DNA from: Collinsella tanakaei | Lineage (GTDB): Bacteria > Actinomycetota > Coriobacteriia > Coriobacteriales > Coriobacteriaceae | NCBI RefSeq assembly: GCF_016902615.1 | Contig: NZ_JACJMB010000010.1 | Coordinates: 1-64,000, forward strand | DNA length: 64,000 nt | Direction: 5' to 3' | Shown here: in pieces, positions 21,956 to 33,976 of the stretch | Layout of the letters: each line of letters starts with the position of its first letter | Numbering within the stretch: position 1 is the first letter of the stretch | Translations under genes and position numbers: made by a program | Notes under the pieces: model-generated | Seen by the model: only the letters and a program-made list of their open reading frames with translations | Told to the model about the DNA's origin: nothing | Databases searched by the model: none

Positions 21956-22055
21956 GGCGGGTGTCTTCATCCGGGACGGGGTTGTTTGGTGCCACCTGGG
22001 CGCGATCGCGCCCAGGTGGCACCAAACAACCCCGTCCCGGATGAAGACACCCGCC
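21956..22055. repeat. 100-bp perfect palindrome
   Basis: The two 50-base arms are complementary at every position, with the centre in CGCGATCGCG (22001-22010) and no loop bases. Pairing breaks at 21955/22056. It begins 9 bases after the aldo/keto reductase stop and ends 59 bases short of the clpB operator. It may stop transcription from the right, but it is far longer than a terminator needs and lacks a U-tract. No second copy was seen in the window. Confidence 0.95.
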
Positions 22056-22064
22056 GACCTGCGG

Positions 22065-23162
22065 CTACATGCCGAAGTAAGCCGCAATCTCGCGCATGCG
22101 CGCGGGCTGCTCAACGCCGAACGGGCAGCGGCGGTCGCAATGACCGCAACCCACGCACTCGCCCGCATGGCGAGCGAGATTGCGGTAGTGCTCCGCCGCC
22201 AGCTCGTCACCCACGCGCGCCAGGTCGTAGTACTTGTTGATCAGGCCGATCTGCAGCCCTGCCGGGCAGGGCTGGCAATGATTGCAGTACACGCAACGCG
22301 CCTCGCGCGATTGCGGCGCGCACGTGGCGAGCACCGAGTAATCGCGCTCCTCAGGGGTCGCATCGAAATAGGCGAGCAGATCGTGCAAGTCGGCCGTGCC
22401 GTGGACGCCCGGCAGCACCGTCACCACGCCCGGCTTATCGAGCGCGTACTGAATGCACTGCGTGCGCGTGAGCGCGCGCCCGAACGGAGACTGCGCGGCG
22501 TCGAGCAACTGGCCGCCTGCAAACGGCTTCATCACGCTCACGCCCACACCCGCCCGCTCGAACTCGCGCAGCAGCGCCATGCGGTCGGCCACCTCGCCCT
22601 GTCCGTACTCGGACTCGTCCGTGTAGTCGTACATGGGGTTCAGGCTGAACATGGCCAGGTCGAACACATCGGTTGCGAGCAGCCGCCGTGCGATGTGGGG
22701 ACTGTGCGTGGAAAACGCCAGATGGCGGATCGTTCCGTCCGCTCTGCGCGCCTGCGCGTAATCCCAGATGCCGCCGTTCATCACGCGGTCCAGGTCGGCA
22801 TCCTCGTCGATGCAGTGGATGAAGCCGAAGTCCGCATAGTCGGTACCGATCGCAGCCAGGCGCTGCTCGAACTCGGCGATAGCGGGCTTGGCGTCCGTCG
22901 TCCACGCGTAGGCGCCGCCACCGTACAGCGCGCCGATATGCACCTGGATGTGGACATCGGCTCGATGGCGATGCAGAGCGCGCCCCATGGCTGCCAGCGG
23001 CTTCGCCTCGCTGGGAATGAAGTCGAAGTGGTTGACACCCGCGTCCACGGCCTCGTCGATCGTCCGTTCGACCTCGGCATCCGTGGCGCTATGCAGGCCC
23101 GCCGACCCAAGGCCGATCACGCTGATCTTGTCACCGCCATGCGGCAGAACACGGTACTCCAT
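22065..23162 (-). CDS. Aldo/keto reductase with C-terminal ferredoxin domain
   Basis: 365 aa. Residues 1 to about 270 form an aldo/keto reductase barrel (MEYRVLPHGGDKISVIGLG, Asp in NHFDFIPSEAKPLAAMG, SLNPMYDY, VMKPFAGG). The C-terminal part carries two cysteine clusters for 4Fe-4S centres: CVYCNHCQPCP and CVGCGHCDRRCP. The family tetrad Tyr is not obvious at the usual place (FIPSEAK), which suggests a changed chemistry. ATG 23162 follows GAGGAGGGG. Likely a cytoplasmic oxidoreductase; substrate unknown. Confidence 0.88.
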   Translation of the reverse strand: MEYRVLPHGGDKISVIGLGSAGLHSATDAEVERTIDEAVDAGVNHFDFIPSEAKPLAAMGRALHRHRADVHIQVHIGALYGGGAYAWTTDAKPAIAEFEQRLAAIGTDYADFGFIHCIDEDADLDRVMNGGIWDYAQARRADGTIRHLAFSTHSPHIARRLLATDVFDLAMFSLNPMYDYTDESEYGQGEVADRMALLREFERAGVGVSVMKPFAGGQLLDAAQSPFGRALTRTQCIQYALDKPGVVTVLPGVHGTADLHDLLAYFDATPEERDYSVLATCAPQSREARCVYCNHCQPCPAGLQIGLINKYYDLARVGDELAAEHYRNLARHAGECVGCGHCDRRCPFGVEQPARMREIAAYFGM

Positions 23163-23279
23163 ATGCGATTCCCCTCCTCAGTCCCCACCGGGACCCATAG
23201 GTATCCAGGCACGCTGCCATTGTCGTACTTGGAGCACGCTCGAAGGCAAGGGTGCCCGCTTGTATTGCAAGCGAGGGTG

Positions 23280-24497
23280 CTACCGAGCGGACGCACCCGC
23301 AGGATCCGCCTCGGGCACCGCGGCCGTACGCCCGTCGAGGTCCCCGCGCCGCTGCTCCCGCAGGCGCCAGGCAACGAAGATGAGACCGAGCGCCGCACAC
23401 GGCAACGCGCCCAATACGGACGCCGGGGCGCCGCCCGCCGCGATGAAGCCACCGCACAGGGTCGTGCCGACCGTCGTCCCCAGGTTCGTGGCCGTCAGGA
23501 ACATGCCGTTGGCGAAGTCAGGAGCCTCGGGCGCGCTGCGGCCCACCATATATTGGTCGGTCGTGTTGGCAACACCCACCGCCACGCCAAGCACGATGAG
23601 CAGCGCCGCGCAGGCAAGCTGCCAGGCGCCCAGGGCAAACAGCAAGACGTAGAGCGCAAGCAGGACGATCGGGGCGACCACCATGGTCCGCGCGGGCACG
23701 GCGCCCAGCGCGCGCCCCGCGACCGCGTTGCCCGAGATATTAGCCACGCCATAGGCGAACAGCAGGGCGCTTACCGCCGCCGCGGCGAAACCCGCCGAGC
23801 CCAGATAGTCCGAAAGGAAGCTATAGAACCCGAACATGCCGGCATTGATGGCCGCAGCAGCCAACAGCGATGCGATAAACAGCGGCTTTTTGAACACGGC
23901 GAGCTGACGGCCGTAGGACAGCGCGTGCTCGACCGGCATGGACGGCACGAAGGCGATCGTCAGGGCAAGCGCGACGATGGTCACGATAGCGAAAGGCGCC
24001 ATGGCGACGGGAAACGCAACCGAACTCGCCAGCATGCCCGCGATGGGAGCGCCGACGACCATGCCGGCAGACACGCCCACGAACACCCGGGCTGAATTCC
24101 GCGCGCGCTCGGCCGCCGTGTCGCCGGTCTGCTGCGCGACCGCCATAGCCATGGACACGTAGAGCGGATGGAACGCCGCCGGTATCACGCGGGCGGCGAG
24201 CAGCAGCTCGAAGGAGGGGGCGACCGTCGCGAACAGGTTGCAGGCAGAGAAGACCCCCAGCGCCAGCAGCATGACGGCCTTGCGGTTCACGCACGAGAAC
24301 AAAAGCGGCATGGTAGGTCCGGCCACCGCCACCACGAGCGCGAAGCCGCTCACGAGCAGGCCCGCATCGGGCACGCTCACGCCATAGCGTGCGGCGACAT
24401 AGGGGATGAGCCCCACGACGCCCATTTCGGTATTGAGGATGCCGAACACTCCGATCGTCAGAATGAACACGAGCAGTCGGCTGTCAATCTGCTTCAT
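23280..24497 (-). CDS. MFS efflux transporter (DHA1/AraJ-like)
   Basis: 405 aa with about 12 membrane segments, starting LLVFILTIGVFGILNTEMGVVGLIPYVAARYGVS as in the AraJ/drug:H+ antiporter group. The loop RARNSARVFVGVSAGMVVGAPIAGML is typical. ATG 24497 follows GAAAGGG. It probably exports a small molecule or sugar. It is upstream of the aldo/keto reductase on the same strand, 117 bases away. Substrate unknown. Confidence 0.88.
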   Translation of the reverse strand: MKQIDSRLLVFILTIGVFGILNTEMGVVGLIPYVAARYGVSVPDAGLLVSGFALVVAVAGPTMPLLFSCVNRKAVMLLALGVFSACNLFATVAPSFELLLAARVIPAAFHPLYVSMAMAVAQQTGDTAAERARNSARVFVGVSAGMVVGAPIAGMLASSVAFPVAMAPFAIVTIVALALTIAFVPSMPVEHALSYGRQLAVFKKPLFIASLLAAAAINAGMFGFYSFLSDYLGSAGFAAAAVSALLFAYGVANISGNAVAGRALGAVPARTMVVAPIVLLALYVLLFALGAWQLACAALLIVLGVAVGVANTTDQYMVGRSAPEAPDFANGMFLTATNLGTTVGTTLCGGFIAAGGAPASVLGALPCAALGLIFVAWRLREQRRGDLDGRTAAVPEADPAGASAR

Positions 24498-26294: not shown

Positions 26295-26526
26295 ATACCT
26301 ATGTTTCATGCTCTTTCATGCAGTTTACGTATAGTTTGAATAGCACGACGTTTGCCAGGTCAACAGAGGGCCGTCGCCTATACCGACCTGCTCAAACGGG
26401 CCGCTCGATCACGCCTGGACGAGATTTTTCCGCCTCGGGACAAATCTGTTGCAAGGATTCCGCACCCTCAATCGTTTCTGTTATGAGGAGCCTCCCCACG
26501 GACACAACGGCAGAAGGGATACGACC

Positions 26527-27018
26527 ATGAAGACGAATACGAAGCTCACGGTATTGGCAACGCTGGGAACCGTCGCGCTGGGCGCAACACTGATCGGTGC
26601 CGTTCCCGCGATGGCGGGCGGCCTCGGCGCAGGGACGGGGCAGGGTAGCCTGCAGGGTGCCCTCAGCCAGACGACGGGAGGCACCCCCTCTGCGCGCTAC
26701 GCAGCAGACGGATGGAGCACCTGCACGGGATACCTCGATGCCGACGGCGACGGGGTGTGCGACACATGCGGCAATGTGGCCTCGCGTGCCCACCATGGCT
26801 GCGCGCGCTATAGCGACGAGAACGGCGACGGCATCTGCGATGCCTGCGCGAACGGCGCCTGCCAAGCGGGCGGGTCAGATGACGGCTTCATCGATGGCGA
26901 CGGCGATGGCATCTGCGACCACCGCGACGCAGGGTCTGCCGCCTCAGGCTGCGCACGTGGAAGCCATCACGGCTACGGCGCAGGCGCGCATCACGCGCAC
27001 GGCCACGGGCACTGCTAA
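26527..27018 (+). CDS. Secreted protein with Asp-rich calcium-type repeats and a His-rich tail
   Basis: 163 aa, exported by a signal peptide (KLTVLATLGTVALGATLIGAVPAMA, cleavage near residue 30). It has three acidic, cysteine-bearing repeats: DADGDGVCDTCGN, DENGDGICDACAN and DGDGDGICDH. The DxDGDGxCD pattern is like thrombospondin type-3 or dockerin calcium loops. The C-terminus is His-rich (GSHHGYGAGAHHAHGHGHC). ATG 26527 follows AGAAGGG. It precedes a sigma factor and anti-sigma factor on the same strand. A role in metal binding at the surface is inferred. Confidence 0.82.
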   Translation: MKTNTKLTVLATLGTVALGATLIGAVPAMAGGLGAGTGQGSLQGALSQTTGGTPSARYAADGWSTCTGYLDADGDGVCDTCGNVASRAHHGCARYSDENGDGICDACANGACQAGGSDDGFIDGDGDGICDHRDAGSAASGCARGSHHGYGAGAHHAHGHGHC

Positions 27019-27191
27019 ACAGGCAATCGGGGCGATGGACAGCTCTCGCCCATGGTGCCGAACGGCACGCGGAACGGACTGCTCGGCACCCGGATGTACC
27101 ATGGTGGATACGGGTGCAGGCGAGACCGGCGTCGGTCCCTGCGAGCATCGCCCCGCATAGCAGCCGTATCGGGGAGGAGAAAGGAGGCGGC

Positions 27192-27680
27192 ATGCGCGCC
27201 AGCAGCGATATCGAGCGGGCCATCGCCACGTTCGGCGATGCCGTCTGGCGCGCGTGTCTGGTCTATCTTTCCCCGGCAGACGCCGAGGACGTCTTTCAAG
27301 ATGTCTTCCTCAAGTTCTCGCTGCACGACGCCGCGTTCGCAGATGGCGCGCACGAGAAGGCATGGCTGCTGCGCGTCGCCATCAACGCCTGCAAGGATGT
27401 CCTCAAAAGCGCGCGCCGCAGCAACGCGTCGGTCGAAGAGCTCGCCGACAAGGGGCGCGAGGGGGAACTCGGCTGCGAGGACGACGAGGCGGCCCTCGGC
27501 CTGCGCACGATCTTGGACGCCATGGACGCGCTGGGCGACCCGCCGAAAACGCAGCTCTACCTCGCCCTGTACGAGGGCTATTCCGCACGGGAGATCTCAC
27601 AGATGACCGGTATGCCGGTGGGCACCGTGTACTCGTGGATCTCGCGCGGCAAGAAGCGACTGAGGGAGGCCCTGTCATGA
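27192..27680 (+). CDS. ECF-type RNA polymerase sigma factor
   Basis: 162 aa. Region 2 includes VYLSPADAEDVFQDVFLKFSLH and the DNA-melting segment KAWLLRVAINACKDVLKS. Region 4 is LYLALYEGYSAREISQMTGMPVGTVYSWISRGKKRLREAL, a helix-turn-helix for the -35 element. ATG 27192 follows AAGGAGG. Its stop overlaps the anti-sigma start (ATGA), so the two are made together. It should redirect RNA polymerase to a small regulon when released. Confidence 0.93.
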   Translation: MRASSDIERAIATFGDAVWRACLVYLSPADAEDVFQDVFLKFSLHDAAFADGAHEKAWLLRVAINACKDVLKSARRSNASVEELADKGREGELGCEDDEAALGLRTILDAMDALGDPPKTQLYLALYEGYSAREISQMTGMPVGTVYSWISRGKKRLREALS

Positions 27681-28648
27681 CCGACAAGCTTGAGCAGCAG
27701 ATGCACGAGGCCTTCGATCGGACGCACATGCCCGCAGGGCTGGCCGAGCGCACGCTCGCGCACATCGAAACGCAGCGGCAGGCTGGGGCCGCCGTCGAGC
27801 GGGCGGATGAGATGGAGGCGCACGCCCCACAGACTGCCAACGAGCCCGCACGTCTCTCGGTCGTCAACGGCGCCGCCGAACAGCCGCGCACACGCGCCCG
27901 GCGCCGCTTCCCGCTTGTCGCCGCCCTCGCGGCGTGCCTCGTCCTCGTGGCGGTGGGCGTCGTCGGCGTCGCCTGGGCATGGCAGCCGTACGCCTACGTG
28001 GCCATCGACGTGAACCCCTCCATCGAGCTCGGCATCAACCGCCTCGACCGCGTGGCGAGCACGAAGGCCTACAACGAGGACGGGGCCGAAGTGCTTGCCA
28101 TAGCAAACGTCGAGGGCGACACCTACGAGGAGGCGATGACGGCCATCGAGGGCGCGCTTGCGACCTATCTCGACAGCTCATCGGCCATCGAACTCACCAT
28201 CGTGTGCGACGACCGAAACGTCGCCACCCAGCTCGAGAGCGTGGGCACGCACTGCCTAGAACAAGACGGCACGGGCCAGGTCCACTGCTCGCACGCAAGC
28301 GAAGAGGACCACGAGCAGGCGGCAGATGCCGGCCTTGGCGTGGGCAAGTACCGCGTGTATCGTGCGCTCGCCGATGCGGGCGTGGACATCACGGCCGACG
28401 AAGCCGGAAGCATGACCATGCGCGAGCTGCTCGACCTGGCCGCTGCCAACGGCGTCGAGCTCTCCTGGCACGATATCCACGAGGCCGAAGGGCATACGGA
28501 CAGCGGCGAGCACGAGGGCTCATCGGCATCTGCCGCCGGGCAGGGCCAGGGATCGGGTGCTGGCAACGGAAACGGAAACAACTCAGGACAGGCCTCCGGC
28601 CATCACGGTGAGCATGCGGGATGGAAAGACGGCCATCACGACGAATAG
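27677..28648 (+). CDS. Membrane anti-sigma factor with RsgI-like extracytoplasmic domain
   Basis: 323 aa. The cytoplasmic N-terminus (1-78) would bind the sigma factor. One membrane helix is at about 79-101 (PLVAALAACLVLVAVGVVGVAW). Residues about 106-175 match the RsgI core: YVAIDVNPSIELGINRLDRV, then NEDGAEVLAIANVEGDTYEEAM. The remainder is soluble and ends in a Gly/Ser/His-rich tail (GHHGEHAGWKDGHHDE). RsgI proteins usually restrain SigI-type sigma factors, whereas the partner here looks like ECF. The tail resembles that of the secreted protein two genes upstream. Confidence 0.88.
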   Translation: MTDKLEQQMHEAFDRTHMPAGLAERTLAHIETQRQAGAAVERADEMEAHAPQTANEPARLSVVNGAAEQPRTRARRRFPLVAALAACLVLVAVGVVGVAWAWQPYAYVAIDVNPSIELGINRLDRVASTKAYNEDGAEVLAIANVEGDTYEEAMTAIEGALATYLDSSSAIELTIVCDDRNVATQLESVGTHCLEQDGTGQVHCSHASEEDHEQAADAGLGVGKYRVYRALADAGVDITADEAGSMTMRELLDLAAANGVELSWHDIHEAEGHTDSGEHEGSSASAAGQGQGSGAGNGNGNNSGQASGHHGEHAGWKDGHHDE

Positions 28649-28754: not shown

Positions 28755-29588
28755 TTATGCCTCGGTGATGTCGATGCCGAAGAACTCCTGTGAGAGCTCG
28801 GCCAGCGTGCCGTCCTCGCGCAGCTCGGCGATCGCCTCGTTCATGGCCGCTAGCAGGCTCTCGGTTGCCGCCTCGCGGCGCAGCGGGAACGCCACGTGCG
28901 TGGGCTCGTCGTTTTCCGCAGCGATCTTCAGGGCCGCATCGGGGTGCTGGTTCATGTAGTCGTAGAACACGACCTCGTCGTTCAGGGTCGCGTCGATGCG
29001 ACCGCTCTCGAGCAGCTGGATGGTCTGGTTGAAGTCGTCCACGCCCGTATTCGTGGCGCCGAAGCTCTCGGCGAGCGTCGCGTAGCTGGATCCCAACGTG
29101 TTGGCCGTCGTCTTGCCCTCGAGGTCTTCCATGGAGGCGATGTCGGAATCCGCGGTTGTGATGACCACGATGCGGTTGTAGGCATACGGCTCGGTGAAGT
29201 CGTACTTCTCCTCGCGCTCGGGGGTGACCGAGACGCCGTTGGCCATCGTATCGTAGCGGCCCGAATCAAGGCCCGCGAGCAGGCCGTCCCACTCGCCTTC
29301 GGCGAAGGTCGCCCCGACGCCGAGCTTGTCGGCAATGGCGCGTGCGACCTCGATGTCGAAACCCGTCAGCTCGCCTGCCTCGTTGTGGAACGTCCAGGGG
29401 CTCCAGGTGCCCTCGGTGGCGAACACCATCTCGCCGCGATCGGAGATCTGGGCGAGGAGGTCGCCGTCGACAGATGCGGACGCCGAGCCGGCATCCGCGC
29501 TGGTGCCGCCGCAGCCGGCAAGGCCGAGCGCCGACACGGCGGCCACGGCGGCCAAAAAGTCGCGGCGGGAAATCTTCTGGTTCAGCAT
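28755..29588 (-). CDS. Amino-acid ABC transporter substrate-binding lipoprotein
   Basis: 277 aa. The signal (KISRRDFLAAVAAVSALGLAGC) has twin arginines before the hydrophobic run and lipobox LAGC at about 22-25. The mature part is a family 3 solute-binding fold: GTWSPWTFHNEAGELTGFDIEVARAIADKLG, GLDSGRYDTMANGVSVTPEREEKYDFTEPY, and a C-terminal ELREDGTLAELSQEFFG. ATG 29588 replaces the longer open frame from 29642. It is last in an operon with ATPase and permease. Ligand is probably a polar amino acid or cystine. Confidence 0.93.
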   Translation of the reverse strand: MLNQKISRRDFLAAVAAVSALGLAGCGGTSADAGSASASVDGDLLAQISDRGEMVFATEGTWSPWTFHNEAGELTGFDIEVARAIADKLGVGATFAEGEWDGLLAGLDSGRYDTMANGVSVTPEREEKYDFTEPYAYNRIVVITTADSDIASMEDLEGKTTANTLGSSYATLAESFGATNTGVDDFNQTIQLLESGRIDATLNDEVVFYDYMNQHPDAALKIAAENDEPTHVAFPLRREAATESLLAAMNEAIAELREDGTLAELSQEFFGIDITEA

Positions 29589-29628
29589 TCCTATCGAATC
29601 CTTTCTTGCTGTTTCTTCTGAGGCTGTC

Positions 29629-30384
29629 CTACTCGTCGGCACCGGAGACGGTGCGCAGGAACGTGCGCACGCGCTCGTTCGCCGGGTACTCGAAGAACTC
29701 GCGCGCAGGAGCCTCGGCCACCACAGCGCCGCCCTCCATGAAGACCACGCGGTCGGCGACGTTGCGCGCGAAACCCATCTCGTGCGTCACCACGAGCATG
29801 GTCATGCCCTCTTCGGCGAGCCGGCGCATGGACCCCAACACCTCGACGGTGAGCTCGGGGTCAAGCGCACTCGTGGGCTCGTCGAAGTAGATGATCTCCG
29901 GGTCGGTCGCCATGGCGCGCGCGATGGCGACGCGCTGCTGCTGGCCGCCGGAAAGCTCCGCCGGGTAGGCGTCGGCGCGTGCCGCCATGCCCACGCGCTC
30001 CAGGCAGCCGCGGGCGATCCGCTCCGCTCGCGCCCGCGGCATCTTGCGGGCAACGATCAGCCCCTCGGTCACGTTGCCGAGCACGGTCCGGTTCCGGAAC
30101 AGGTTGTAGTTCTGGAACACGAACGCCGTCTTGCGGCGCACCTCCGAGATCTCGCGTCTGCTCGCGCTCGCCAGGTCGTAGCGCCCGCCGCCGAGCTCGA
30201 GCGTGCCGGCATCGGCGCGCTCTAAAAAGTTCGCGCAGCGCAGCAGGGTCGTTTTGCCCGATCCAGACGGGCCCAAAATGGCCACGACCTCGCCGCGGCG
30301 CACGGTGAGGTCGATGCCGTGCAGCACCTCGACGCCACCGAACGACTTGCGCACGCCCGAAAGCCTCAGCATCTCATCTGCCAT
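29629..30384 (-). CDS. Amino-acid ABC transporter ATPase
   Basis: 251 aa with Walker A GPSGSGKTTLLRC, Q-loop FVFQNYNLFRNRTVLGNV, signature LSGGQQQRVAIARAM, Walker B EIIYFDEPTSALD and H-loop VVTHEMGFA. This is the GlnQ/TcyC type that powers polar amino-acid import. It starts 3 bases after the permease stop and precedes the binding protein by 40 bases. Confidence 0.95.
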   Translation of the reverse strand: MADEMLRLSGVRKSFGGVEVLHGIDLTVRRGEVVAILGPSGSGKTTLLRCANFLERADAGTLELGGGRYDLASASRREISEVRRKTAFVFQNYNLFRNRTVLGNVTEGLIVARKMPRARAERIARGCLERVGMAARADAYPAELSGGQQQRVAIARAMATDPEIIYFDEPTSALDPELTVEVLGSMRRLAEEGMTMLVVTHEMGFARNVADRVVFMEGGAVVAEAPAREFFEYPANERVRTFLRTVSGADE

Positions 30385-30387
30385 GTG

Positions 30388-31062
30388 CTATCCCCTCTCC
30401 ATGCCAAACGACGCGAGCTTCTTCTCACCGATGCCCTGCAGCCACGTGAGCACCGTGGAGAACAGCAGGTAGATGGCTGCAACCTCCAGGTACAGCGGCA
30501 GCGCCTCGTAGGTGCGCGACACGATCTGCTGGGTGGCCATGAGCATCTCGAGCACGGTGATGTTCGCCGCGAGCGACGTGTCCTTCACGAGGGCGATGAG
30601 CTCGTTGGAAAGTGGCGGGAACGCGGCGCGCAGGGCTTGCGGCAGCAGAATGCGGCGCATGATTTGCATGTAGCTCATGCCCACGCAATAGCCCGCTTCG
30701 AGCTGGCCCGCCGGCACCGATTCCAGCGCGCCGCGGATGGTTTCGGCAGAATAGGCGCCCGTGTTGATGGAGAACACGATGATGGCCGTCGGGAACGGGT
30801 CGAGCACGATGCCAAAGTCCGGCAGACCGTAAAACACCACGTAGAGCTGCACGAGCAGCGGCGTGCCGCGGATGATCCAGATGTAGAAGCGCGCGAGCTG
30901 CGTGAGCACGGGCACGCGCGCATACTGCACGAGCGCCACGGCGATAGCGATCACGAGCGCGATGGCGAACGAAATGAGCGCCAGCGGGATGGTGGCGGTC
31001 AGGCCCGGGATGAGAATCTTGGTGAACGAATCGGCCAGGATTGCCGCAACGCGGTCACTCAT
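30388..31062 (-). CDS. Amino-acid ABC transporter permease
   Basis: 224 aa with about five membrane segments of the HisMQ/TcyB type. The N-terminal ITRIPLA-like segment (GLTATIPLALISFAIALVIAIAVALVQYA), RGTPLLVQLYVVFYGLP, and the EAA loop (GALESVPAGQLEAGYCVGMSYMQIMRRILLPQALR) are typical. A single permease in the operon implies a homodimer. ATG 31062 overlaps the end of the cysteine-rich gene by 8 bases. Confidence 0.95.
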   Translation of the reverse strand: MSDRVAAILADSFTKILIPGLTATIPLALISFAIALVIAIAVALVQYARVPVLTQLARFYIWIIRGTPLLVQLYVVFYGLPDFGIVLDPFPTAIIVFSINTGAYSAETIRGALESVPAGQLEAGYCVGMSYMQIMRRILLPQALRAAFPPLSNELIALVKDTSLAANITVLEMLMATQQIVSRTYEALPLYLEVAAIYLLFSTVLTWLQGIGEKKLASFGMERG

Positions 31063-31498: not shown

Positions 31499-33976
31499 CT
31501 AGCGCTCCGATCTCCGGGTCCGATGGATGGCGAACAGGCCGCATGCGATTAGTGCGATGCCAGCACCGCCTACAAGGAGCACCGCTGCCAGCGAGTTGTC
31601 GCCGGTCTGCGGCAGAATCTCGCGTACGTTCTTGCCGGTGAGCTCGGCGTTATCGGATGGCTTGGCGGGATCGTCCTTGTTGGCATCCTTCGTGTCTTTC
31701 AGTAGGTCAGCACGGGCAATGATCTCGAAGTACCCGCCAGCAGGCGTCGTGAGGTACACCTCGCCACCGCCGACGACGGTTTCGTACGTGTAGGTGTAAC
31801 CATCGTCGCCGTACAGGACGACCTCGACCGTCTGGTCATCGTAGTCGTGCGTGCGGATGCCGATGCGCGCGTGCATGCCGTCGAAGGTCATGCCCATGAC
31901 CGTGTCGTCAAGCGGCGTCACGAGCGCGATGGCGACACCGAGGACCGCGCGGTCGCCTTTGCCCAGGCTCGTAACGGGATTCTCACGTGCGCCGGTAAGC
32001 ACCAGGCACTCCACGGTGACGCCCGAGGGGACGCCTTCCACCGTGATGCCGGCGCTCGCGTTCCGGTAATCCCAGGTCGCTCCGGTACCGAACACCGCGA
32101 TGCGGCGCGTTGCCGTCACGCTTTCCGCTACGTCCGGGAACGCGCGCGTGGTGGCCGTGATGGTCACGACGCCGTCGGAAACTGCGGTCATCGTGCCGTT
32201 GGCGTCGACGCGTGCGACCTTGGAATTCGACGAGCTCCACGTCACCGCAACTGCGGAGGCGGCGGGATCGAACACGGGCTTTAGATTCAGCGGGTTGCCC
32301 GGAGACGCGTAGGCAACGTCATCGCCAAAGGGATCATCGGGAAGCGCGATCGTGAAGTGCTCGATCTTGGGCTTGGTAGCGATGGCCTGGGAGAACGTCT
32401 CCGTCGCCTTGGCGAGGGAGTCCGTCGCGGCATCGACGTCGTTTTGCGTGAGCGATGTCAGCTCTGCGGTTGCGACGGTTTTGGCCGCAGCGCGAGCGGC
32501 GTTGAACGCGTCGCCCTGCTCCGTTGTTGCCCACCGGGCGCCGGGAGCGACGTCGAAGATGTCCTCGGCGATGGTCACGCCGTTGTCCGCATCAGCAGCT
32601 GCGGCGCGCGCCTTCTCAAGATCAGCGCGGGAAACCTGGGCGACTTTCACGGTGTCCTCGAACGCAGTGCGGGCTATGGCAAGCGCATCCGCCGTGGTGT
32701 CGACGGCGTTCTGGCTGGCGTCCTTTGCGTCGAGCATTGTCTTCGCCTCGGCGAGGGCTGCCTTGAGCGCATCGTGATGTTCGGGGGCTGTCCAGGCGGA
32801 GCCGTGCTTTACATCACGGCCGTCCTTCGAGGCGGCGGTTTCTGCGAGGGCTTTGTCCGCCGCCGCCGCAGCGTCACTCAGGGCCGTGCGGTCGACATGC
32901 ACCATCTTGATGGCAGCGGCGAGCTTCTTATGTAGGTCTTTGACCTCGCCGCGTGCGGCAGAAATGCCGTCGAGCGTGAGGTCTTCGGCCTCGAGCCTTG
33001 CCGCGAGCGCATCCAGCTCGGACGCGAGCGTCGCAGCGTCATCCGCCGGCAGGTAGGCCGTCGCATCAGGCGCGTCTGCCAGCTCATCCTCGTCGAGAAC
33101 GGTCGCCTCGTCCAGCTTCGCGCGCAGCTCTTCCAGCTCAGCCGTTGCCGCGGCGAGCTCCTCCTCGAGCTTGGCGTCGAGATCCGCACCGGGCCCCTCT
33201 TCAGGCTGCTCCTCTTCGAACTGCTCCTCGGGATTCTCTTCGGGGGTCTTCCCCGGCTCGGCCTCGTCACCCTCGCGGGGCTCCGGACCAGGCTCTTCCT
33301 CAAGCTCCTGTTCCGCCGGCTCCGCGGGTTCGGAGGCAACCGCACCGATGACCTCGTAGCGCCCGTTGGCCGTTCCCGTCGGCACGCCGTTCAGCGTGAG
33401 GCGCGCGCCGTCCCAGCGCACTTCCACCAGAGCACCCGCCGGGGATCCGTCCGCGCCGGCGACTACGGTGGCGCTCAGCGTCACCGGCTCATCGCCTTCC
33501 GCGTAGAACACGATGGTCACGGTGTCGCCAACGGCGACACCGCCTGCGGGGAACAACAGGTTGGCACTGACGGGATCGGTCGAATCGTCGCCTTCCGCAA
33601 CCGGATAGGCGAGCTGGCCCACAAAGGTCACGGCCTGGCCTTCCGCGAGCTCCGTCGTCCGGGCCTCCTCAACCGGCAGCACACTTGCCTGGGGTACGAG
33701 GTCGCCCAACGGCCCGACGATCCAGCCGGACCCGTCGACATCCACAGCGCTCACGGCATCGGTCGTATCGTCGGCGGGCGCGGTCTCATCTTCCGCATCC
33801 GGCGGCAGGGTTTCTTCGGTAGCAGCCGCCTCCTCATCCGCCGCAGCGGACTCAAGCTCGACGACCGCCACTTCGGGCGCGTCGTCGGCATATGCAAGGG
33901 AGGGAATCGGACTCACCGCAATCAGCGCAATAGTCAGCAGCATGGCGGGGAAGTTCGCAACGGGCATCCTCTTCAT
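31499..33976 (-). CDS. LPXTG cell-wall-anchored surface protein
   Basis: 825 aa. Signal peptide about 1-29 (FPAMLLTIALIAVSPIPSLAYA). An acidic segment and a beta domain follow to about 210, then a Glu/Pro-rich linker (about 215-265) and a helical region. Two FIVAR-like repeats lie at about 370-520 (GSAWTAPEHHDALKAALAEA; GARWATTEQGDAFNAARAAA). A bacterial Ig-like (Big_2) domain is at about 550-630 (VTWSSSNSKVARVDANGTMTAVSDG). The sorting signal LPQTG is at 788-792, followed by a hydrophobic segment and RRSER. Sortase should link it to peptidoglycan. ATG 33976 follows GGAGGAGGG. Likely an adhesin or structural surface protein. Confidence 0.92.
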   Translation of the reverse strand: MKRMPVANFPAMLLTIALIAVSPIPSLAYADDAPEVAVVELESAAADEEAAATEETLPPDAEDETAPADDTTDAVSAVDVDGSGWIVGPLGDLVPQASVLPVEEARTTELAEGQAVTFVGQLAYPVAEGDDSTDPVSANLLFPAGGVAVGDTVTIVFYAEGDEPVTLSATVVAGADGSPAGALVEVRWDGARLTLNGVPTGTANGRYEVIGAVASEPAEPAEQELEEEPGPEPREGDEAEPGKTPEENPEEQFEEEQPEEGPGADLDAKLEEELAAATAELEELRAKLDEATVLDEDELADAPDATAYLPADDAATLASELDALAARLEAEDLTLDGISAARGEVKDLHKKLAAAIKMVHVDRTALSDAAAAADKALAETAASKDGRDVKHGSAWTAPEHHDALKAALAEAKTMLDAKDASQNAVDTTADALAIARTAFEDTVKVAQVSRADLEKARAAAADADNGVTIAEDIFDVAPGARWATTEQGDAFNAARAAAKTVATAELTSLTQNDVDAATDSLAKATETFSQAIATKPKIEHFTIALPDDPFGDDVAYASPGNPLNLKPVFDPAASAVAVTWSSSNSKVARVDANGTMTAVSDGVVTITATTRAFPDVAESVTATRRIAVFGTGATWDYRNASAGITVEGVPSGVTVECLVLTGARENPVTSLGKGDRAVLGVAIALVTPLDDTVMGMTFDGMHARIGIRTHDYDDQTVEVVLYGDDGYTYTYETVVGGGEVYLTTPAGGYFEIIARADLLKDTKDANKDDPAKPSDNAELTGKNVREILPQTGDNSLAAVLLVGGAGIALIACGLFAIHRTRRSER

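Follow-up and report, generated by a model that had tools for sequence, protein, structure and literature searches.

The window, i.e. the whole 64 kb stretch of DNA that was analysed, contains on its plus strand a compact unit of three genes that encode a small secreted protein, an ECF sigma factor, and a membrane anti-sigma factor with an RsgI-type ectodomain, preceded by a candidate promoter (Table 1). The three DxDGDGxCD repeats and the His-rich end that the first-pass annotation had ascribed to the secreted protein are indeed there, in an open reading frame that starts with a signal peptide, and a search of all six frames of the window with the pattern D.[DN]GDG.CD returned the three loops of this protein only.

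Table 1. Features of the three-gene unit; positions are counted from the first nucleotide of the window.
Feature	Position	Strand	Details
Promoter TGCAAGGATTCCGCACCCTCAATCGTTT	26450..26477	+	fits TGMAWGGAT-N13-TCGTNT; end 49 bases before ATG
Secreted protein gene	26527..27018	+	ATG 26527, stop 27018; 163 aa, signal peptide, 10 Cys
Loop 1 of secreted protein, DADGDGVCD	26737..26763	+	residue 71
Loop 2 of secreted protein, DENGDGICD	26815..26841	+	residue 97
Loop 3 of secreted protein, DGDGDGICD	26893..26919	+	residue 123
His-rich C-terminal tail of secreted protein	26947..27015	+	7 His in last 23 residues
ECF sigma factor gene	27192..27680	+	162 aa; regions 2 and 4 (Pfam, alignment)
Membrane anti-sigma factor gene	27677..28648	+	323 aa; overlaps sigma gene by ATGA
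Transmembrane helix of anti-sigma factor	27908..27979	+	residues 78-101; AlphaFold/DSSP helix, hydrophobic
RsgI_M ectodomain of anti-sigma factor	27989..28363	+	residues 105-229; Pfam PF23750, 7.5e-23
DVNPS, predicted self-cleavage at Asn113/Pro114	28007..28021	+	N and P invariant; cleaved PDB chains begin at Pro
Gly/His-rich C-terminal tail of anti-sigma factor	28442..28645	+	residues 256-323; 9 His in 68 residues; pLDDT about 50-60

The acidic DxDGDG loop of the secreted protein occurs likewise in the calcium loops of the Excalibur, EF-hand and TSP3 types, and in Excalibur the loop is followed by a Cys, as is the case here. The protein differs from these families, however, in that it stays below the thresholds of Pfam (for Excalibur 11.3 bits, with a cut-off of 22), has one Cys per loop, and is not predicted to have flanking helices; among its homologues, the best E-value for an Excalibur or EF-hand calcium domain is 0.0043. 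An AlphaFold model of the secreted protein was discarded (pLDDT 48.5). Cys residues are kept in all 55 secreted homologues (range 4-28), and the type of repeat differs among them, being DADGDGVCDN loops, CYQDGVCxGxGCCDxDGVCQYGGSC units, or CTHNSDCPVHNGSCPDI tandem repeats. In three loci (L058, L060 and L089), the partner encoded upstream of the ECF gene is made up of many tandem repeats of the CTHNSDCPVHNGSCPDI type with a species-dependent copy number, and the Cys/His spacing of these repeats recalls metal-binding repeats. One homologue (L073) has a C-terminal segment that resembles a surface-protein repeat.

The sigma factor gene matches both Sigma70_r2 (1.2e-8) and Sigma70_r4_2 (1.3e-10) in Pfam and is therefore a true ECF factor, as the first-pass annotation had called it; TIGR02937 is matched with 63 bits (cut-off 42.9). 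Region 4, which SigI-type sigma factors lack, is present, and the SigI-like factor of the same genome is a separate gene on another contig (C3). A membrane anti-sigma factor is co-encoded in an overlapping gene with one transmembrane helix, and this is kept in 71 loci. With regard to a possible attenuator between the first two genes, the RNA fold of positions 27005-27200 is no more stable than that of shuffled sequences (z -0.76).

For the anti-sigma factor, an RsgI core and a His-rich tail had been noted. RsgI_M, the single helix and the His residues of the tail are confirmed, but the SigI-binding RsgI_N was not found by Pfam, which detects RsgI_M alone in all 57 aligned anti-sigmas. In this alignment, D111, N113, P114, S115, I116, E117, L118, G119, I120 and N121 are invariant. 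The anti-sigma profile finds RsgI periplasmic domains in the PDB (8hep, 8u9o, 8her, 8heq, 8hdj and 8t9n; E-values down to 4e-19), and as the matched chains of 8hep, 8u9o, 8her, 8heq and 8hdj begin at the Pro of the Asn-Pro pair, they represent the cleaved C-terminal parts. A PDB query with the cleavage-motif peptide alone gave zero matches. The AlphaFold model of the anti-sigma factor has a pLDDT of 81, with mostly >90 in the ectodomain, and Foldseek aligns it with the same RsgI structures (E-value 7e-8, TMt up to 0.80). In the monomer model, the cytosolic part consists of two helices (residues 2-15 and 22-47, pLDDT mostly 66-86). Class I anti-sigma domains have four helices, and those of class II, the CnrY type, are short and have two (PMC7406223); judged by the model, the cytosolic part is shorter than a class I domain and more like the CnrY type.

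Close homologues of the anti-sigma factor are encoded in 7 of 43 Collinsella genomes, and the secreted protein is found in the same 7, adjoining the sigma gene, and in none of the 36 others. The chance of exactly this split is 1 in C(43,7), or about 3e-8, on the assumption of independent genomes, which holds only in part. Scanning of named genomes yielded 80 loci, which span Collinsella, Slackia, Gordonibacter, Enterorhabdus, many Lachnospiraceae and Oscillospiraceae, Thomasclavelia and Treponema. Gut bacteria of three phyla share the three-gene order, which is found in Coriobacteriia, Clostridia, Thomasclavelia and Treponema, and together with the common promoter described below this argues that the arrangement is not due to chance; that the pairing of RsgI with ECF might be an artefact was ruled out by its occurrence in many genomes. 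A secreted Cys-rich protein is encoded directly upstream in 63 of the 68 ECF/RsgI_M loci that have enough upstream sequence (60 by automatic counting, to which L021, L033, L035 and L042 were added and from which L078 was removed by eye). Four of the five loci without partner (L078, L084, L085, L091 and L095) encode longer anti-sigmas of 360-402 residues. In the 17 whole genomes with the module, the secreted family is confined to it, with one weak exception. The three-gene unit, whose credibility had been made dependent on co-conservation of the secreted protein with the sigma pair, is thus upheld both within the genus and across phyla. The same annotation had regarded an ECF partner of an RsgI domain as unusual; in the fetched loci it is the common case, as the sigma gene upstream of the RsgI_M gene is of the ECF type in 71 loci and of the SigI type in 6, with a sampling that is biased to ECF because the query was of the ECF type.

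Neither a clustering of the flanks nor a Pfam tally of 86 flanking proteins revealed recurrent neighbours beyond the three genes, and the amino-acid ABC transporter and the hydrolase that are encoded next to the unit are therefore not counted as part of it. The transporter genes (28755-31062, minus strand; binding protein, permease and ATPase) are convergent with the module; further Collinsella also have them at this place, but members of other taxa do not. Further along the minus strand (31499-33976), a large secreted surface protein of 825 aa is encoded that has a C-terminal LPQTGD-like sorting motif and a membrane anchor. A GC-rich open frame of 684 aa on the plus strand (22041-24095), antisense to a transporter gene, is probably no gene.

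The search for a common promoter upstream of 26527, which the first-pass annotation had proposed, was successful. An ECF-type pattern, TGMAWGGAT-N13-TCGTNT, is found upstream of the secreted gene at a fixed spacing from Treponema to Collinsella, and we infer that the ECF sigma factor reads this promoter at 26450. In 16 of the 17 whole genomes with the module, the strict pattern occurs exactly once, at the module, and the seventeenth (G050) has a one-base variant at this position. In 296 Coriobacteriia genomes, 61 of which have an ECF-type anti-sigma, the strict pattern occurs 53 times, 44 times at the module, i.e. within 2.5 kb upstream of the RsgI_M anti-sigma gene and on the same strand. The nine other occurrences, three in module genomes and six in the other 235, correspond to a background rate. 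At the level of sequence, the strict pattern thus marks essentially this operon only in Coriobacteriia, and judged by this pattern, which would miss degenerate promoters elsewhere, the only target of the sigma factor is its own operon. A second strict target promoter was not found in the own genome, where sites with two mismatches look like background. The simplest reading is that the strong target of the sigma factor would be the operon that encodes it, and the secreted protein the output.

The tails of receptor and secreted partner resemble each other. In 55 loci, the share of His is 12.5% in the secreted tail and 13.3% in the receptor tail, compared with 3.2% in the receptor core, and a higher His count in one tail goes along with a higher count in the other (rho 0.70, p 3e-9). 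Phylogenetic contrasts (PIC) gave r 0.44 with p 7e-4 (same-sign contrasts 32 vs 11) and p 0.14 in the rank version. The tail compositions match better within loci than in shuffled pairs (p 0.0002; p 0.004 and 0.015 when shuffled within clades), and Gly is the commonest residue in both tails. The paired His-rich ends of the first-pass annotation are thus matched in their His content. That both proteins bind the same metal through His is plausible, and we go no further than that because not every secreted homologue has a His-rich end: of the 55, 5 lack His in their last 35 residues and 18 have at most two there. This scarcity of His in about a third of the secreted tails counts against a metal mechanism. 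Judged by the His residues, the Cys residues and the Asp loops, a metal is plausible as leading guess for the ligand; no metal gene recurs near the module in the flank clustering or in the tally of 86 proteins.

Exported partners are encoded also at SigI loci, where SigI receptors with His tails adjoin a His/Cys-rich secreted protein (L056, L066 and L087). This argues that the exported partner is tied to the outer part of the receptor and not to the class of the sigma factor. In Diplocloster (L056:55-825 and 2566-2961, likewise L066), such a divergent His/Cys-rich secreted protein lies beside a SigI/RsgI pair that has a His-rich tail, and about 2 kb away a CbiM cobalt/nickel transporter component is encoded (PF01891, 1.9e-54), which is a weak hint at metals as it is limited to one genus. 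At the SigI locus on contig C3 of the own genome (L002:584-3311), the SigI-like factor is encoded together with an RsgI-type anti-sigma whose tail is rich in Asp (24 of the last 60 residues) and with an adjoining lipoprotein that combines RsgI_M and PepSY with an Asp-rich tail (38 Asp in 60). Here, too, receptor and exported partner are alike in the chemistry of their tails. The same constellation of Asp-tailed receptor and Asp-tailed lipoprotein is found in L011-L014.

How could such a module function? Its sequences show one promoter, three co-conserved genes, an ECF gene that overlaps that of a one-helix anti-sigma, and an RsgI-type ectodomain with its Asn-Pro motif, and on balance we consider it likely that this is a self-contained, autoregulated transmembrane signalling operon that follows the complete mechanism outlined here. 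The domain of RsgI cleaves itself and its fragments come apart upon a signal, whereupon RseP makes a cut within the membrane and an AAA+/ClpP protease completes the process (PMC12203970). In the module, the ECF factor would be held by the cytosolic part of the anti-sigma factor, a short stretch of two helices, and the ectodomain would cleave itself at Asn113-Pro114, with the two halves staying associated. Outside the cell, an event at the Gly/His-rich tail, most likely the binding of a metal ion, perhaps jointly with the secreted protein that bears the matched tail, would then separate the cleaved halves, upon which a site-2 protease and thereafter a cytosolic protease would free the sigma factor. 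M50 proteases are encoded in the own genome, as they are in every control genome. The freed sigma factor would transcribe its own operon, and the output would be the secreted Cys/Asp/His-rich protein, which would capture this ligand extracellularly and thereby close the loop. As a whole, the module has the appearance of a dedicated sensor at the cell surface, and what it senses may be metals. A generalization, which we regard as rather doubtful, would be a gut-wide principle of surface sensing: a self-cleaving receptor and its co-encoded exported partner would carry low-complexity tails of matched chemistry, His/Gly with His/Gly at ECF loci and Asp with Asp at SigI loci, one metal or other ligand would bridge them or be competed for, and the sigma regulon would be one operon.

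What alternatives exist for such a ligand-triggered loop? A sensor of force or wall stress remains a fair rival, if a rather unlikely one. The RsgI-type domain would then respond to force or wall damage and any metal would be incidental, the Gly/His tail would be a flexible anchor that crosses the wall, and the secreted protein would be a calcium-stabilised wall or surface component that is made on demand. Mechanotransduction has reportedly been proposed for RsgI-type domains by Brogan in 2023, and the predominance of Gly in both tails as well as the surface-protein-like end of the L073 homologue would fit. Signalling by separation of cleaved halves, as it is held for RsgI-type domains (PMC12203970), would fit as well, but the enrichment and co-variation of His in both tails and the constant presence of Cys are not explained by a stress sensor.

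It is less probable still that the secreted protein is itself the signal, i.e. an autoinducer or co-receptor that directly contacts the anti-sigma factor at its ectodomain or tail and thereby either triggers or prevents the release, with positive or negative feedback. The strict co-conservation, the first place in the operon, the matched tails, and the presence of partners also with SigI-type receptors, which ties the partner to the ectodomain, would all agree with this, but species differ greatly in the type of repeat, in contrast to the conserved receptor core. Control of several genes by one ECF factor is common, and the operon could in principle be merely the best-conserved target of a wider stress regulon, with degenerate sites escaping the strict pattern; some genomes indeed exceed the control in two-mismatch sites. 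As 16 of the 17 genomes contain a single strict site, and as other sites are at background level in the 296 genomes, we regard such a regulon as very improbable.

The autoregulated operon that we favour shares with SigI-RsgI of Bacillus subtilis and Clostridium thermocellum the membrane anti-sigma factor, the RsgI_M ectodomain of the self-cleaving type with its invariant Asn-Pro, the variable C-terminal sensor part, and the operon with the sigma gene. It differs in that its sigma factor is a true ECF factor that has region 4, that RsgI_N and a carbohydrate-binding module are lacking, and that a dedicated secreted gene occupies the first place. In CnrYXH, the Ni/Co-responsive ECF system of Cupriavidus, an extracytoplasmic partner protein likewise adjoins the ECF/anti-sigma pair; CnrX is a membrane-anchored periplasmic sensor, whereas the partner here is secreted. 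The ECF factor is a further common trait, and a short two-helix anti-sigma of class II (PMC7406223) is a possible one, the likeness being one of architecture and not of shown sequence relation, with a metal response that is hypothetical here. As in SigV-RsiV and other RIP-controlled ECF pairs, the ECF factor would be freed by stepwise destruction of a membrane anti-sigma, but the first cut would be the self-cleavage in the RsgI-type domain, and the sensor domain is a different one. In agreement with the first-pass annotation, which knew of no described system of this composition, text searches with incomplete coverage of the key papers returned no system in which an ECF/RsgI_M pair is accompanied by a secreted protein of this kind. 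We file the module under RIP-controlled sigma/anti-sigma signalling with an RsgI-type receptor, which is already known, the new aspect being the recombination of this receptor with a sigma factor of the ECF type and with a secreted protein dedicated to the module.

The RsgI-type self-cleaving receptor domain is thus used well beyond SigI, in a compact ECF circuit that is found in many host-associated Bacillota, Coriobacteriia and Treponema. A small secreted Cys/Asp/His family that has no other Pfam assignment is now placed under one regulator with a readable promoter. With a regulon of a single promoter, the output would be unambiguous, and the signal could be found with one reporter.
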